Source: Spirochaetae bacterium HGW-Spirochaetae-3
GTDB lineage: Bacteria > Spirochaetota > Spirochaetia > Treponematales > UBA12059
Length of the DNA stretch: 64,000 nt
Direction of reading: 5' to 3'
NCBI GenBank assembly: GCA_002839315.1
Contig: PGXV01000002.1
Span: 124,001-188,000, forward strand
Below are positions 49,558 to 56,842 of this stretch, one piece after another. The position numbers and the translations under genes are program-made. The notes under the pieces were generated by a model, which made no database searches, had not been told where the DNA came from, and saw nothing but the letters and a program-made list of their open reading frames with translations. The first letter of the stretch is position 1, and each line of letters begins with the position of its first letter.

Positions 49558-49586
49558 TTGACAGGAAAATACCATTGCGGTATTGT
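49558..49586 (+). promoter_or_regulatory. Promoter of the rrf2 gene
   Basis: TTGACA (49558-49563), a 17-bp spacer and TATTGT (49581-49586). The -10 ends 9 bases before ATG 49596, so the transcript has at most a few leader bases. Confidence 0.65.
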
Positions 49587-49592
49587 AATACC
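49579..49592 (+). promoter_or_regulatory. Operator 1: GGTATT-GT-AATACC over the rrf2 promoter
   Basis: A perfect 6-bp-arm palindrome that covers the -10. A second half-site pair ATACC-N5-GGTAT overlaps it upstream (49570-49584). A near copy is found at 50093-50106, 12 of 14 bases identical, so it looks like the site of the Rrf2 protein encoded here. Confidence 0.6.
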
Positions 49593-49595
49593 ATA

Positions 49596-50048
49596 ATGCC
49601 TGTTAATGGGATCGTCCATCTGTCCGACGCCAGCCTCATAGCCATCCACGCGCTCGCCGGATTGGCGGCGGCGCCCGGGCGCCTCGTTCAAAGCAAGGAA
49701 CTCGCTGCCATCATCGACGCCAGCGAAAACCACCTGGCCAAGGTCATGCAACGGCTGGTGCGGGCGGGGATAGTACGTTCGGTCAAGGGACCGAACGGAG
49801 GATTCCAGCTTGACCGTCCGGCGGGCGACATTAGCTTCAGGGAGGCGATCGAGGCCGTCGACGGTCCCTTGACCGGAGACTTCTGCCCTTTCAGGACGGA
49901 CCGATGCCATCCCGACAACTGCATCTTCGGGCACGAGATATCGCGTCATGCCGCGGAACTCGTAGCTTACCTCGGGGACAGGACCATCGCCGACATAGCC
50001 GCAGAACAGGCGGGAAAGATAGCCCCGGATTATACGGTCTCCCGCTAA
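49596..50048 (+). CDS. Rrf2-family (Fe-S type) transcriptional regulator
   Basis: A 150-residue protein from ATG 49596. The winged helix is in LVQSKELAAIIDASENHLAK and VRSVKGPNGGFQLDRPAGDI, as in IscR/NsrR. Three cysteines, Cys97, Cys104 and Cys109 (DFCPFRTDRCHPDNCIFG), have the spacing of an Fe-S cluster site, so it probably senses nitric oxide, oxygen or cluster status. The next genes encode a ferredoxin-type protein and the hybrid cluster protein, which in other bacteria are NO-response genes. It shares an operator with them. No Shine-Dalgarno sequence; leaderless start likely. Confidence 0.9.
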   Translation: MPVNGIVHLSDASLIAIHALAGLAAAPGRLVQSKELAAIIDASENHLAKVMQRLVRAGIVRSVKGPNGGFQLDRPAGDISFREAIEAVDGPLTGDFCPFRTDRCHPDNCIFGHEISRHAAELVAYLGDRTIADIAAEQAGKIAPDYTVSR

Positions 50049-50092
50049 GCGGCTCGGGAAGGGCGATACAGAGTAGCGATATTACTTGTTTG

Positions 50093-50106
50093 GGTATTTT
50101 AGTACC
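50093..50106 (+). promoter_or_regulatory. Operator 2: GGTATT-TT-AGTACC before the ferredoxin-hcp operon
   Basis: It matches operator 1 at 12 of 14 bases. The similarity goes on downstream (CCTGTTA-R-TG in both), so the two promoter regions look duplicated. No clear -10 is seen; TTGTTT at 50086 may be the -35. Confidence 0.55.
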
Positions 50107-50147
50107 ACTTTACCTGTTAGTGAGAACCAGTGATTGAGGAGGATACG

Positions 50148-51074
50148 ATGCCAACGAGAACGGTTATAGAGATCGACGAGGATCTGTGCGACGGATGCGG
50201 CCAGTGCGCCACCGGCTGCCATGAGGGCGCGCTCCGTATAATCGACGGCAAGGCCCGCCTCGTAGGAGAGAGCCTATGCGACGGCCTGGGCGCATGCATA
50301 GGCGAATGCCCGCGCGGCGCCCTCAAGACCGTCCAGCGCGACGTCGAGGAATACGACGAGCGCCGCGTCATCGAGCACATCCTGCCCATGGGCGAGGCTA
50401 CCGTCGCCGCCCACCTCGATCACCTGAAGAGCCACGGCCAGGATACCTGGCACGCCCAGGCGGTCGCCGTCCTAGAAGAGAAAGGCATCGCCGTCCCGGC
50501 CCCGCTTAGTCCCGCCGCCGGCTCCCGATTCGGCGACCTGCTTCGAAGCCCGGCCGCCGGGACGACGGCCCGCGTCGTGGATAACGGCATGTCCGGCTCC
50601 TGCCCCGGGTCCGCCGCCCGCTCGTTCGGCTACGGCGCCGCGCAGCGTTCCGCGCCGGCCGAAGGATCCCCTTCGGGATCCCCCTCGGGCGGCATGGCCT
50701 CGCGGCTGGAGCAGTGGCCGATTCAGCTCCATCTCGTCAATCCGCGCGCCCCGTATTTCGCCGGAGCCCACGTGCTCATCGCGGCCGACTGCACGGCGTT
50801 CGCGTGCGGCGCCTTCCATCAGACGCTGCTCGCCGGCCGCAGGCTCGTCATCGCGTGCCCCAAGCTCGATACCGGAAAGGAAATATACGTAGACAAGATA
50901 CGCGCGCTGATCGACGACTCGGGCGCGGCGTCGATAACGCTGGCCATCATGGAAGTCCCCTGCTGCGGCGGGCTCAAGCGACTCCTCGACGAGGCCATGG
51001 CCGGAGCGAAGCGCGACGTACCGGTCTCCGTGGTCGTCGTCGGCATAGAGGGCGGGAGCCTTACCTGGCTCTGA
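50148..51074 (+). CDS. 4Fe-4S ferredoxin-type protein with C-terminal redox domain
   Basis: A 308-residue protein from ATG 50148, with GAGGAGG upstream. Residues 8-60 form a two-cluster ferredoxin (CDGCGQCATGCHEGAL, LCDGLGACIGECPRGAL). A Gly/Ser-rich linker near residues 140-185 contains a hairpin-forming GGATCCC repeat. The C-terminal 110 residues carry more cysteines (ADCTAFACGAF, IACPKLD, MEVPCCGGLKRLL) in the way common to anaerobe proteins near Hcp. It probably hands electrons to the hybrid cluster protein encoded 120 bp downstream. Confidence 0.85.
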   Translation: MPTRTVIEIDEDLCDGCGQCATGCHEGALRIIDGKARLVGESLCDGLGACIGECPRGALKTVQRDVEEYDERRVIEHILPMGEATVAAHLDHLKSHGQDTWHAQAVAVLEEKGIAVPAPLSPAAGSRFGDLLRSPAAGTTARVVDNGMSGSCPGSAARSFGYGAAQRSAPAEGSPSGSPSGGMASRLEQWPIQLHLVNPRAPYFAGAHVLIAADCTAFACGAFHQTLLAGRRLVIACPKLDTGKEIYVDKIRALIDDSGAASITLAIMEVPCCGGLKRLLDEAMAGAKRDVPVSVVVVGIEGGSLTWL

Positions 51075-51106
51075 CGAGGTTTTTTTAAATCGAGAGGGAG
51101 GCGCTC

Positions 51107-51141
51107 GTCAGTCGAATGCACGATACTTGTATTCGACTGAC
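51107..51141 (+). promoter_or_regulatory. Long hairpin between the ferredoxin and hcp genes
   Basis: GTCAGTCGAAT (51107-51117) and ATTCGACTGAC (51131-51141) form a perfect 11-bp stem with a 13-base loop; no T run follows. It may set the relative amount of the two proteins by processing or partial termination, or be an operator. Confidence 0.55.
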
Positions 51142-51194
51142 CCAGCCTTACGTCGGACCGTCGGCCCGGCTCACGATAGAACGAGGAGGTGCTT

Positions 51195-52886
51195 ATGTTC
51201 TGTTATCAGTGTCAGGAGACCATAGGAAACAAGGGTTGCGCGGGAACGGCGGGCGCATGCGGCAAGAAGGCGCCGACGGCAGAACTCCAGGATCTGCTTA
51301 TCCATTCGCTAAAGGGCGTCTCGGCATGGACCGTAGAGGCCCGGGCTCGCGGCCTTCCTACCGACGACGCCGACGACGCGATCATGGAAGGCCTCTTCGC
51401 GACAATCACCAACGCCAACTTCGACGACGCGTACTTCCAGAAAGCCATCGGCGCGTCGCTTCGACTTCGCGACGACCTGCGCGACTCGGTTAACCGCGCC
51501 CGGGGCGCCTCCGGCTCCAAGGGCTGTCCCGCCTGCGGCGCCGACGAGGGCGTATCCGGCGAGAAGGCAATTCTCCGCTCAGACGCCGTCCTGTGGACGG
51601 CCGCGCCCCAGGACTACGCGTCCAAGGCCAGGACCGTAGGCGTACTGGCGACCTCGGACGAGGACGTCCGTTCGCTTCGCGAGCTGGTCGTGTACGGACT
51701 CAAGGGAATAGCGGCCTACGCCCATCACGCGTCGGTGCTCGGGGCGCGCGACCCGTCTATCTTCGCCTTCACGGCCCGGGCCCTGGCGGCGACGCTGGAC
51801 GACTCCATGACGGCGGAGGCGCTCACCGCCCTCGTACTGGAATGCGGCTCGACGGGAGTGAAGGCGATGGCGCTGCTCGACGGCGCCAACACGGGTACCT
51901 ACGGCAAGCCAGAGATAACGAAGGTCAACATCGGCGTCCGCGGCAACCCCGGCATCATCGTCTCCGGCCACGACCTCAAGGACCTGGAGATGCTCCTCGA
52001 GCAGACCAAGGGAAGCGGCGTCGACGTGTATACGCACGGCGAGATGCTCCCGGCCCACTCCTACCCCGCCTTCAAGAAATACTCCAACTTCGTCGGCAAT
52101 TACGGAAACGCCTGGTGGAAGCAGCGCGACGAATTCGAGTCGTTCGGCGGCCCCATACTGATGACGACCAACTGCATCGTCCCGCCCCCGGAATCTTATA
52201 AGGCCAGACTGTTCACTACGGGCGTGGCGGGCTTCCCCGGTTGCCCCCATATCGACGCGGACCCGAGCGGCCGTAAAGACTTCTCCGCGGTCATCGCCGC
52301 CGCCAAGTCCTGCAAGGCGCCCGAGGAGATCGAGACGGGAACCATCGCGGGTGGCTTCGCGCACGACCAGGTAGCGGCGCTCGCCGGCGACGTCGTAGCG
52401 GCCATAAAGGCCGGCAGGATCCGCAAATTCGTCGTAATGGCCGGGTGCGACGGCCGCGCCAAGGATCGCGGATACTATACGGATTTCGCGGCGGCCCTGC
52501 CGAAGGACGCGGTCATACTCACCGCCGGCTGCGCCAAGTACCGCTACAACAAGCTGGACCTGGGCGACATCGACGGCATTCCGCGCATCCTGGACGCGGG
52601 TCAGTGCAATGACTCGTACTCGCTCGTCGTAACGGCCCTGCTCCTCAAGGACGCGTTCGGGTTATCGGACATCAACGAGCTACCGATAGCGTTCAATATC
52701 GCGTGGTACGAGCAGAAGGCCGTCATCGTGCTGCTAGCGCTCCTGTCGCTCGGCGTCAAGAACATCCACCTGGGACCGACGCTCCCGGCCTTCCTGTCCC
52801 CGAACGTCGTAAAGGTGCTCGTCGATAGTTTCGGCATAGCGGGAATCGGCTCCGTAGAGGACGACCTTAAGCTACTCGTGGGCTGA
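51195..52886 (+). CDS. hcp: Hybrid cluster protein (hydroxylamine reductase)
   Basis: A 563-residue protein from ATG 51195, with GAGGAGG upstream. The N-terminal Fe-S motif is [20 protein letters not shown] with cysteines 3, 6, 15 and 22. The later cysteine and glutamate ligands of the hybrid cluster lie in segments such as [73 protein letters not shown] and [10 protein letters not shown]. It reduces hydroxylamine or nitric oxide in anaerobes. Placed after an Rrf2 regulator and a ferredoxin, it is most likely part of an NO or nitrosative stress response. Confidence 0.96.
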
Positions 52887-53063: not shown

Positions 53064-53070
53064 CGTGAAC

Positions 53071-53544
53071 ATGGTCAAAGCAAGAAGCGGGGAAATGCCG
53101 CTCGAGAAGAATACCGCCGATGAGTTACTCTATAAAAGCCTGCGCTCGGTATACCATTTCGAGCGGAGCCTGATCGAGCGTTTCGGCTTGGGCTACCAGG
53201 AGATTTACCTGCTTCAACTGCTCCGCAGGCGCGAATCGGCCCGTATCGGAGAAATTTCATCCGCTCTGGGCATTCAGGTATTCTCGGCGACCAGGCTCGT
53301 GCAGCGGCTCGAGGCCCTCGGCTACGTCAGCAAGCGGCGCGACGAGCGCGATCGTCGGGGCGTCGAAGTAAGGCTGGAGCCGGAAGGCGACCGTTTCGTA
53401 GGGGAGATAGAGAAGCATAATTTCGAGTTGATATCGGGTTCCACCTCGCGGCTCTCGAGCGGCGATCAGGAAGCCTTCCTGATCGTCGCCCGGAACCTGG
53501 ACCACGCGCTCGGCGTCCAGGACAGGATAGACGTCGATCCCTAG
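53071..53544 (+). CDS. MarR-family transcriptional regulator (second)
   Basis: A 157-residue winged-helix protein from ATG 53071. RFGLGYQEIYLLQLLRRRES and IGEISSALGIQVFSATRLVQ give the helix-turn-helix, and KRRDERDRRGVEVRLEPEGD is the wing. The stop overlaps the end of the convergent cyclase-like gene. It is the nearest regulator to the palindrome between the cyclase-like and DUF362 genes, and may act there; I see no such site at its own promoter. No Shine-Dalgarno sequence; TATATT lies 7 bases upstream. Confidence 0.88.
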   Translation: MVKARSGEMPLEKNTADELLYKSLRSVYHFERSLIERFGLGYQEIYLLQLLRRRESARIGEISSALGIQVFSATRLVQRLEALGYVSKRRDERDRRGVEVRLEPEGDRFVGEIEKHNFELISGSTSRLSSGDQEAFLIVARNLDHALGVQDRIDVDP

Positions 53545-54659
53545 CGGTCGTACTCCCCGTATTCGCAACCGCCCAGCTCCCCTTCAAGGGTATCAACCTC
53601 TATCCATTCGCCGCCGCGCTTCTCCAGGATGCGGATGGTACCGGACGCGAACCCGCCGTTCCACAGGCGATTATGCTTCTTCTCGCCGTCTGGATTCTCG
53701 TAATTGACGTTGAGCATCGTAGCCCGCGGGCACGCGAAGCGTATCTCTACCTTCGACTTCCCGTCCCAGGCGTCGATGTTCCATTCCACCCTATCCTCGA
53801 GAACGGGGCAATCGAAGACCTGATTGGAACCCTTCCAGAACTTCGAGAAATTCCATTCATAGAATTTCCCTTCGTAATGGAGGGCGATGAGGAGCTTGCG
53901 GGGCAGCGAGATACCGAAGGCGACGGGCTGGGCTCCTCCTACGTCGAGGCTAGAGCGTTCCAGCTGCTTACCGGTCTTCCTGCTCTTCAGGTTATTGCAG
54001 TTGAGCCATACCCAGGGGCTCGTATAGTCGCGACCCCAGTTCTTGTCCTGGTATCCGAACGACGTCTCCGGATCGACGCGCCATTTCTCGCCGTTGAACA
54101 GTATCGTTCCCTTGTAGCGCGTTCGCATCCCGGCCGCGTGCCAATACATATTGAAGGCGTCCAGCTTGCGGAAGAAGGCGTTCGTGCCCCAGCCGACGCA
54201 ATAGGGAAGAATCTTCTCGGCCTCGAGGTCCCAGCTCATCTCGCCCGCGTCCGACATGTATTCCGGATGGGCCTTGGCATCGGGCTCGCTTAACGATACT
54301 GAGCCCTTGATCCGCGTCTCCGTCGCGGTATGCTCGCCGATGCGCACGTCCATGCGATCGCGCGACGCGGAGAATTCCGATACGGGATAGAGGTTATGGA
54401 GCTGAGCCTTGCCGTCGCCCCAACGGCCCGCCTTGATCATCGCGTAGCAGGGCTTCCTGCCGGCGGACTTGTTGGCCGGCAGCTGGCCCGCCACCGGCTC
54501 GGGCGTCGCGAACCCGGGATTGATGACGTAGTACTCGATGAAGTACGGCCGGCGCTCGCCGGTCTTCTCGTTCGTGGCGATAAGCGAGTGCCACCACCAA
54601 TCGTAACCGCGCCTGGCGCGGGCTCCGGAAAGCATGTAACCGTTCCTTGCGTCGTCCAT
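53541..54659 (-). CDS. Tocopherol-cyclase-like (VTE1-like) protein
   Basis: A 372-residue protein from ATG 54659, preceded by GGAGG five bases away. FIEYYVINPG, then MSWDLEAEKILPYCVGWGTN, FGYQDKNWGRDYTSPWVWLN and a beta-rich second half resemble bacterial proteins related to plant tocopherol cyclase, which are mostly of unknown function and may modify or bind lipids and quinones. No signal peptide is seen. It is divergent from the DUF362 gene with a shared palindrome at the two -35 elements. Confidence 0.65.
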   Translation of the reverse strand: MDDARNGYMLSGARARRGYDWWWHSLIATNEKTGERRPYFIEYYVINPGFATPEPVAGQLPANKSAGRKPCYAMIKAGRWGDGKAQLHNLYPVSEFSASRDRMDVRIGEHTATETRIKGSVSLSEPDAKAHPEYMSDAGEMSWDLEAEKILPYCVGWGTNAFFRKLDAFNMYWHAAGMRTRYKGTILFNGEKWRVDPETSFGYQDKNWGRDYTSPWVWLNCNNLKSRKTGKQLERSSLDVGGAQPVAFGISLPRKLLIALHYEGKFYEWNFSKFWKGSNQVFDCPVLEDRVEWNIDAWDGKSKVEIRFACPRATMLNVNYENPDGEKKHNRLWNGGFASGTIRILEKRGGEWIEVDTLEGELGGCEYGEYDR

Positions 54660-54702
54660 GAGAACCTCCTGGCGGAGCGTCTTCATTCATCCCCGCGAAA
54701 AC

Positions 54703-54731
54703 AGTATAGGTCTATTATTTGCATTGTGCAA
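54703..54731 (-). promoter_or_regulatory. Promoter of the cyclase-like gene (minus strand)
   Basis: TTGCAC (54726-54731), a 17-bp spacer and TATACT (54703-54708). The -35 lies on the palindrome at 54717-54733. Confidence 0.65.
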
Positions 54732-54733
54732 AT
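54717..54733. promoter_or_regulatory. ATTTGCA-TTG-TGCAAAT palindrome shared by divergent promoters
   Basis: Perfect 7-bp arms and a 3-bp spacer. It contains or overlaps the -35 elements of both flanking promoters, so one bound protein would block or activate both. The MarR protein at 53071 is the nearest candidate. Confidence 0.65.
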
Positions 54734-54752
54734 TTAACTTCGGCCTTATACT
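54724..54752 (+). promoter_or_regulatory. Promoter of the DUF362 gene (plus strand)
   Basis: TTGTGC (54724-54729), a 17-bp spacer and TATACT (54747-54752). The start site near 54759 leaves a leader of about 26 bases with GAGGAGA. Confidence 0.62.
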
Positions 54753-54784
54753 TTATTCATACAGCCGAGCCGAGGAGACCATCC

Positions 54785-56842
54785 ATGGCGACAGTCACCG
54801 TAGAACGCCTGCCCGCACTATCCAACGAGACCTTCAGGAAAGACGCCGACGGCCTCGTTGACACGGGCTATTCGCAGGACTGCGCCGCCCTACCGCGCGA
54901 TTACGGTACGGAGGCCTGGGATGCCCGCCCGGATGTCGCTGCCATAAGGACGGCCGTATTCGCCGCCCTCGACCGGCTGGAGGCGGAGACGGGCATATCG
55001 TCCCGCTTCTCGGGACGGCCCGCGCTCGTGAAGCCGAACCTGGTGACCGTATACCACGAGATGGGGATGAAGCGGCGATCGTACCCGGAGACGACGGATC
55101 CTCGCGTGCTCGACGCGACGGTACTCTGGCTCCAGCGCTTCGCGCCCTCGATACGCATCGTCGAGTCGTCGGGACGCGGCGCGCCGACGCGCGGATCGTT
55201 CAAGGTCTCGGGAATAGACAGGCTGGCGGCGCGCCGGGGCTGCGACCTCGTGGCCCTCGAGGAGACGCCGGTCGACCGCTACATCCTGCCGAAGGCGACC
55301 GTCCAGCGGGAGATCCTCGTGCCGAGGCCCTTCTCCGCCGTCGTCAGGGGCGAGGCCGCCTACGTCTCGGTTCCGAAGCTCAAGACCAACCTGTATACCG
55401 GCGTGACCCTGGGCTTCAAGAACGCGATGGGCGTGATACCGTACAACCTGCGGCAGCGCAGCCATCATTACGCCATCGACCGCAAGCTCGTCGAGATGCT
55501 GTACCTCTTCAGGCCCGACCTCGTGGTGATAGACGGCGTCGTGGGAGCCGAGGGTGAATGCCCGGCCCCGGTCGACCCGGTGGACTCGAGGATGATAATA
55601 GCGGGCGACCATCCCGTGGAGACCGACCGCGTAGCGACGCGCTTGATGGGTTTCGACCCCGCCGCGATAGAGCTCATGCGCGTCGCCGACGAGCTGGGAT
55701 TCGGAGATCCCGCCGGAGCCAGGATCTTCGCGGCTGGATTCGCGCCGAATGGCTCCGGCGGCGGATCGCCGGAGCTCGGAGGCGCCATACCGACGCCGTT
55801 CCGGCCGGCGGACTGGAAGCTTTCGTCAGGGCGCGTCAGCCGGGCCTTCCCGGGAATACTCGTCCTCATAGGGATTAACCGCGGAGGCCTCGTCGCGACG
55901 GGCGGTAAAGAGCTCGTCGACGAGATGCAGGCCTCGTGCCGGGGCGGTTGCGTGGCGACGACCAGGTTCGCGTTCTCGATGATGGAGGCCGAAGGCGCGG
56001 AGCCGCGCCGCCCGGTCGCGCTCGTCATAGGCGCCGGCGTCGAGCGCGACGGCCGGTTATCCTGGTACGACCCCGACGGCAAGGCCTACGACGAGGACGC
56101 GATACGGCGATTGCCCATGAAGAAGGCCGTCATCGGCTCCTGCACTCGAGCGCTGGCGCCGCTCGCCGACCGCTTCGTCGACGGATGCATGGTCATGCCG
56201 AACGGACCGCACATGGTCCTTCACGAGCTCTCCGGCGTCCCGTGCCGCGTCATGTCGCTACGCAACAGGAACCTGTTACCGATGCTCGTGGCCACCCTGG
56301 GCCAACGCTCGGCCCGGCGCCGCCTAATCGAGGACGGACAGCGGCTGGACGTCGCGCTACGCATGGAAGACGGGCCCATCGAGCACCGGGAGCTGACCGC
56401 GGCGGAAGCCGAGCGCGACTGGGTAGAATGGCCCCTGCCTCCGATCGAGCCCGAGGAGATGGGCCGGCTACTCGACTTCGAGGACGACGCCGCACTCGCG
56501 TCGTTCAGGGGGATCCTGGTATTCCGCCTCAAGGAGAAGGCGCTCTGGGGCGCCAAGACGGCGCTGGCGGCCGCGATAACGCTCGGGCCGGCGATCCTCG
56601 CCGCCTCGGCCGCCGCCGGCCATGCCGCGCTGGGGCTAGGTACATTCGCATGGCTCGGTATATTCGCCGCGATCGAGGCCATACACCTCGCCGAGATACC
56701 GGCCGCGCTGCGCGCCTGGAAGAAAGAGGCCGAGCGCAAGGCGCTACCGTGGACCCGGGCGCGGGCCGTCCGCGCGGTGGCGGGAACGCTAGCCTGCGGT
56801 TATCCGACCTGGGTGCCCAGGAAGCTCGGGGTATACGACTGA
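54785..56842 (+). CDS. DUF362-domain protein with C-terminal membrane segment
   Basis: A 685-residue protein from ATG 54785. The first 320 residues carry DUF362 motifs: ALVKPNLVTVYHE, IRIVESSGRG, YVSVPKLKTN, VTLGFKNAMGVIP and VVIDGVVGAEGECPAPVDPV. A middle part with cysteines (ASCRGGCVAT, VIGSCTRALA) follows, and a hydrophobic stretch (residues about 590-640) points to membrane attachment. Unlike many DUF362 proteins it has no clear ferredoxin domain. The biochemical role is not known. It is divergent from the cyclase-like gene and shares its operator. Confidence 0.8.
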   Translation: MATVTVERLPALSNETFRKDADGLVDTGYSQDCAALPRDYGTEAWDARPDVAAIRTAVFAALDRLEAETGISSRFSGRPALVKPNLVTVYHEMGMKRRSYPETTDPRVLDATVLWLQRFAPSIRIVESSGRGAPTRGSFKVSGIDRLAARRGCDLVALEETPVDRYILPKATVQREILVPRPFSAVVRGEAAYVSVPKLKTNLYTGVTLGFKNAMGVIPYNLRQRSHHYAIDRKLVEMLYLFRPDLVVIDGVVGAEGECPAPVDPVDSRMIIAGDHPVETDRVATRLMGFDPAAIELMRVADELGFGDPAGARIFAAGFAPNGSGGGSPELGGAIPTPFRPADWKLSSGRVSRAFPGILVLIGINRGGLVATGGKELVDEMQASCRGGCVATTRFAFSMMEAEGAEPRRPVALVIGAGVERDGRLSWYDPDGKAYDEDAIRRLPMKKAVIGSCTRALAPLADRFVDGCMVMPNGPHMVLHELSGVPCRVMSLRNRNLLPMLVATLGQRSARRRLIEDGQRLDVALRMEDGPIEHRELTAAEAERDWVEWPLPPIEPEEMGRLLDFEDDAALASFRGILVFRLKEKALWGAKTALAAAITLGPAILAASAAAGHAALGLGTFAWLGIFAAIEAIHLAEIPAALRAWKKEAERKALPWTRARAVRAVAGTLACGYPTWVPRKLGVYD

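Follow-up and report, generated by a model that had tools for sequence, protein, structure and literature searches.

The palindrome between the tocopherol-cyclase-like (TC) gene and the DUF362 gene of Spirochaetae bacterium HGW-Spirochaetae-3 is probably the operator of the neighboring MarR-family regulator encoded at 53071-53544, which would shut both promoters of the divergent pair; the genes may belong to an anaerobic redox module. The regulatory part of this reading, a local MarR repressor released by its ligand in which one dimer shuts two promoters, is put forward with good confidence from comparison of the aligned loci. The chemical part, the aldehyde/acid redox conversion of a hydrophobic compound, is suggested by family membership and gene neighborhood and is offered as tentative. 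The window referred to throughout is the whole 64,000-nucleotide stretch of DNA that was analyzed, and its features are collected in Table 1.

Table 1. Positions of the genes, promoter elements and putative operator in the window
Feature	Position	Strand	Remarks
MarR-family regulator gene	53071-53544	plus	possible GTG start at 53065; convergent with TC
TC gene	53541-54659	minus	ORF can extend to 54686
TC promoter -10, TATACT	54703-54708	minus	17-bp spacer
Palindromic operator (putative), ATTTGCA-TTG-TGCAAAT	54717-54733		core TTGCA-N3-TGCAA at 54719-54731
DUF362 promoter candidate -35, TTGTGC	54724-54729	plus	within operator; letters vary among relatives
TC promoter -35, TTGCAC	54726-54731	minus	within operator
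DUF362 promoter -10, TATACT	54747-54752	plus	17-bp spacer; position kept in six spirochaete loci
DUF362 gene	54785-56842	plus	685 aa; C-terminal hydrophobic helices (alignment, model)

The intergenic palindrome and its promoters

The putative operator lies within the 98-bp TC/DUF362 gap and, as read from the sequence, has arms of 7 bp and a spacer of 3 bp. The earlier note on this DNA had described such a palindrome between a minus-strand TC gene and a plus-strand DUF362 gene, with an adjoining MarR gene; the palindrome is present, the gene families are as named (PF14249, E=1.7e-10 for TC; PF04015, E=8e-32 for DUF362), and the regulator, which converges on TC from the far side, is confirmed as a MarR protein (PF01047, E=2e-10, 40.9 bits vs a cut-off of 24.6). 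The 17-bp spacers given for both strands are likewise borne out (TTGCAC-17-TATACT, minus; TTGTGC-17-TATACT, plus). The further claim of a shared palindromic -35 holds for the TC side, where a TTGCAN-17-TATAAT-like arrangement is conserved in 14 of 15 TC loci compared among related Spirochaetota and Anaerolineaceae (the spacer is 16 bp in the remaining one). Its symmetry was overstated for the DUF362 side, as the weaker hexamer there varies between TTGTGC, CTGTGC and CTTTGC and only its -10 is fixed in the six spirochaete loci; the site is therefore not shared equally by the two promoters.

When the gap is shuffled, 90 of 2000 versions (~4.5%) contain a perfect palindrome whose arms are 7 bp or longer, so the palindrome alone is weak evidence; given this rate and the poor -35 hexamers on both sides, each matching TTGACA at only three of six positions, the sequence by itself would be no proof of a regulatory site. 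TTTGCANNNTGCAAA occurs a single time in the 3.88-Mb window genome, and the 13-mer TTGCANNNTGCAA is found in exactly one copy in each of eight distinct spirochaete genomes (G000, G003, G004, G006, G061, G062, G063 and G065), every time at TC. As base composition predicts 1.4 copies of TTGCANNNTGCAA per genome, so about one, as observed, the telling point is the place of the copy and not its number. A regulon of many sites in Spirochaetota was considered and dropped on the basis of the same single copy per genome.

Conservation of the site across relatives

An alignment of six spirochaete gaps shows 14 invariant columns among the 17 of the operator vs 18 among the 114 outside it (Fisher p=8e-8, for rows that are related). 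The gaps of Spirochaetota loci with both DUF362 and MarR have diverged save for the palindrome and the -10 boxes, and the palindrome takes the form TAAATTTGCACTGTGCAAATTTA in L007 and L028 and ATATTTGCATTGTGCAAATAT in L032. In the Anaerolineaceae (L035, L037-L041) the TC promoter has the core TTGCA-N3-TGCAA at the spacing seen in Spirochaetota, with one mismatch in L039; throughout L028-L041 the distance between TC and the operator in its promoter is nearly constant. A chance arrangement in two ordinary overlapping promoters would agree with the rate at which shuffled gaps yield an equally long palindrome, but sequence and position are kept across Spirochaetota and Anaerolineaceae where the flanks have diverged, and this explanation is highly improbable. 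By comparison with its relatives, the palindrome is judged to be a genuine regulatory site; a conserved operator, its spacing, the linkage of the genes and regulon membership can all be read from the aligned loci.

The MarR regulator

Orthologues of the window MarR adjoin TC in relatives, and the site overlaps promoter elements of the target genes in the sequence and in the aligned loci, as is expected of MarR regulators. Among 80 TC loci, 11 carry both the palindrome and a MarR homologue, 63 neither, five the palindrome only and one MarR only; the association (Fisher p about 5e-9) is uncorrected for relatedness, and because the loci are related such p-values overstate independence. In the palindrome-only loci L032, L039 and L041 the sequence stops short of the expected MarR position, and the palindrome in L048 and L076 may be there by chance. 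The latter, from an Oscillospiraceae genome, has an exact TTGCAGACTGCAA upstream of TC (L076:4922), with no MarR relative of this group seen nearby.

The sole MarR-only locus, L043 (Chloroflexi), has MarR, DUF362 and TC in one operon behind two operator copies, and is the strongest case for MarR as the cognate regulator. In four Anaerolineaceae loci (L035, L037, L038, L040) the operator, with one mismatch, lies directly upstream of MarR, and the TC gene has an operator as well; in L033 it lies between an AOR-Fd-DUF362 unit (AOR, aldehyde:ferredoxin oxidoreductase) and TC, with MarR downstream of TC. The gene order is thus rearranged between groups without separating the site, MarR, TC and DUF362. 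In L034 the site, TC and MarR are present, with DUF362 not seen in the available stretch, so TC and MarR may form the core.

Another factor could bind the palindrome, the MarR gene being a mere syntenic neighbor; in Spirochaetota the MarR gene is convergent rather than divergent with its presumed targets, and its own promoter is without the site. This is quite unlikely, given that the site precedes MarR itself in L043 and in the four Anaerolineaceae loci, and that in two phyla the site and MarR are found together although the order is rearranged. A recognizable operator was not found at the promoter of the MarR gene in Spirochaetota, so autoregulation is not visible there. The MarR gene at 53071 very probably encodes the cognate repressor, since the site is conserved, tracks MarR and precedes MarR operons in Anaerolineaceae/Chloroflexi.

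An activating MarR, for example one that recruits polymerase to the poor -35 boxes, is unlikely; half-matched hexamers on both strands do resemble those of activator-dependent promoters, but the site overlaps the -35 itself, at the MarR operon the Chloroflexi copies overlap the spacer or the start region, both being positions typical of repressors, and most MarR proteins repress (PMC4992311). We infer that a MarR dimer on the palindrome would mask the -35 regions of the two promoters and thereby repress the TC and DUF362 genes together, and that a small lipophilic or aromatic ligand would bind MarR and make it let go, turning both genes on. Thiol redox sensing of the OhrR type was ruled out, as the window MarR protein has no cysteine. 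The MarR gene is preceded by genes for an Rrf2 regulator, a ferredoxin-domain protein and hydroxylamine reductase (Hcp) at 49575-52886 of the window; this order is kept in the close relatives L028-L030, but the genes were not observed at loci further removed.

Regulating divergent promoters from an inverted repeat that overlaps promoter elements is a standard design among MarR proteins (PMC4992311). The predicted system resembles YvmB/PchR of Bacillus subtilis (PMC4992311) in its winged-helix MarR, in its inverted repeat over promoter elements and in the single gap that serves divergent genes; it differs in that the Spirochaetota regulator gene lies outside the divergent pair, is convergent with one target and shows no visible self-control. 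It shares a MarR of the ligand type and a palindromic operator with the quinone-sensing MhqR, whose operator, TATCTCGAA-ATCGAAATA, differs from the site described here (PMC12893000); a redox-active ligand, lipophilic or aromatic, could be imagined for the window MarR. In the open literature, outside which most subscription journals lie, neither this specific regulon nor the TC-DUF362-AOR-ferredoxin set was found, and no paper was found that links aldehyde ferredoxin oxidoreductase to either DUF362 or tocopherol cyclase; the type of regulation is known and the gene set appears undescribed.

The TC protein

The TC gene probably starts at 54659 and not at 54686, because an AGGAGG lies just upstream and its relatives begin at the same residue. 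The PF14249 match of TC scores 41 bits vs a cut-off of 26.6 and covers residues 167-311 only; a search of solved structures by sequence gave no significant match. The structure model (mean pLDDT 92) is predicted to have an AttH/CrtC-type fold and matches AttH, kievitone hydratase, fungal Diels-Alderases and 25-phosphosteroid lyase with Z of 19-23 over 260-291 residues, which suggests the fold of hydratases, lyases and cyclases that act on hydrophobic molecules. TC is thus like tocopherol cyclase and other AttH/CrtC-fold enzymes in its predicted fold and its PF14249 score; it is unlike them in its ~8-14% identity to solved members and in its hosts, which are anaerobes with no known need for tocopherol. 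To our knowledge, no explanation has been offered for the tocopherol-cyclase-like proteins of bacteria that are anaerobic and non-photosynthetic.

This MarR and this site are both missing from the loci of most TC homologues (63 of 80), so TC functions apart from the module as well. Outside the MarR group TC mostly stands alone, and its neighbors include several short-chain dehydrogenases, one aldehyde dehydrogenase, one AMP-binding ligase and two TetR genes, which is consistent with, and not decisive for, alcohol/aldehyde/acid chemistry. In several rumen Firmicutes, short-chain dehydrogenase genes adjoin TC; the neighbors lie downstream in L061, L068 and L082 and on both sides in L102, where an aldehyde dehydrogenase gene is among them. 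A gene for Wadjet JetA (PF18982) directly follows the TC gene at L052:6128-7528.

The DUF362 protein

DUF362 is a large family for which we know of no assigned reaction. The window protein, which scores 111.4 bits vs a cut-off of 24 for PF04015, is a long DUF362 that ends in hydrophobic helices; among solved structures none was found for it by sequence. DUF362 and DUF2088 (LarA) are common to Pfam clan CL0471 (PMC11770544), and the best fold match of DUF362 is LarA-like, if weak (E=7e-3). It departs from the LarA superfamily in that LarC, found in 11 of the 17 genomes searched, was not found in six, whose completeness is not established; a nickel-pincer cofactor is therefore not obviously needed, and as a requirement it is not supported. 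The last part of the DUF362 frame in L031:2770-4818 holds an in-frame stop, perhaps because the assembly is in error or the tail has been lost. Next to an AOR gene, at G019:C92:79970-82290, lies a stretch whose match to DUF362 is confined to the C-terminal tail (residues 588-682), which hints that the membrane anchor may be encoded as a protein of its own.

Partnership with aldehyde:ferredoxin oxidoreductase

The linkage of TC, DUF362 and MarR in other genomes, which the earlier note proposed as a check, is found in Spirochaetota and in Anaerolineaceae/Chloroflexi, and its guess of an unknown lipid or redox pathway gains support from relatives that add AOR and polyferredoxin genes to the regulated unit. 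In L035, L037, L038 and L040 these genes form a MarR-AOR-ferredoxin-DUF362 operon that converges on TC; they are also part of the regulated unit of L033. AOR shares one unit with DUF362 in these five loci and in L070, L167, L169, L171 and L172. Of 59 related genomes, 12 have a close orthologue of the long DUF362; in 11 of those 12 spirochaete genomes a close AOR orthologue is present too, often adjacent to DUF362 and also where TC is absent; AOR was not found in the genome of L060. The AORs of relatives score far below the curated cut-offs of the named AOR models.

AOR is not present in the window, and the window genus is without it at this locus. The closest AOR in the window genome, at G000:C4:273975-275960, lies beside a TetR-like gene; as a regulon member it was dropped, the operator not being found near L141. 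This AOR, which has a divergent TetR-like gene (L141:5018-7964, G000:C4), is the closest in this genome to the enzyme of the Chloroflexi module.

The chemistry that we infer would have TC, with its AttH/CrtC fold, act on a hydrophobic substrate, preparing or finishing it, and DUF362 act as the membrane-bound partner of an AOR that interconverts aldehyde and acid with ferredoxin as electron carrier; this AOR is encoded in the regulated unit of relatives and elsewhere in the window genome. The module resembles the AOR family with its ferredoxin partner in that AOR and polyferredoxin genes occur together in the regulated unit of relatives, and differs from it in adding DUF362, TC and a dedicated MarR. 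It may perhaps represent an anaerobic pathway, widespread and so far undescribed, that uses an AttH/CrtC-fold enzyme, an AOR and a DUF362 protein of the LarA clan anchored in the membrane to convert a lipophilic, possibly isoprenoid, substrate sensed by the dedicated MarR. The analysis predicts the regulator, the operator and the targets for two families without an assigned function, both tied to aldehyde:ferredoxin chemistry, and a MarR with one genomic target would be usable to find the inducer and hence the substrate. In the Firmicutes locus L070 (4370-10047) the TetR, TC, DUF362 and AOR genes follow one another, which places these enzymes under a regulator of the TetR family in place of MarR.
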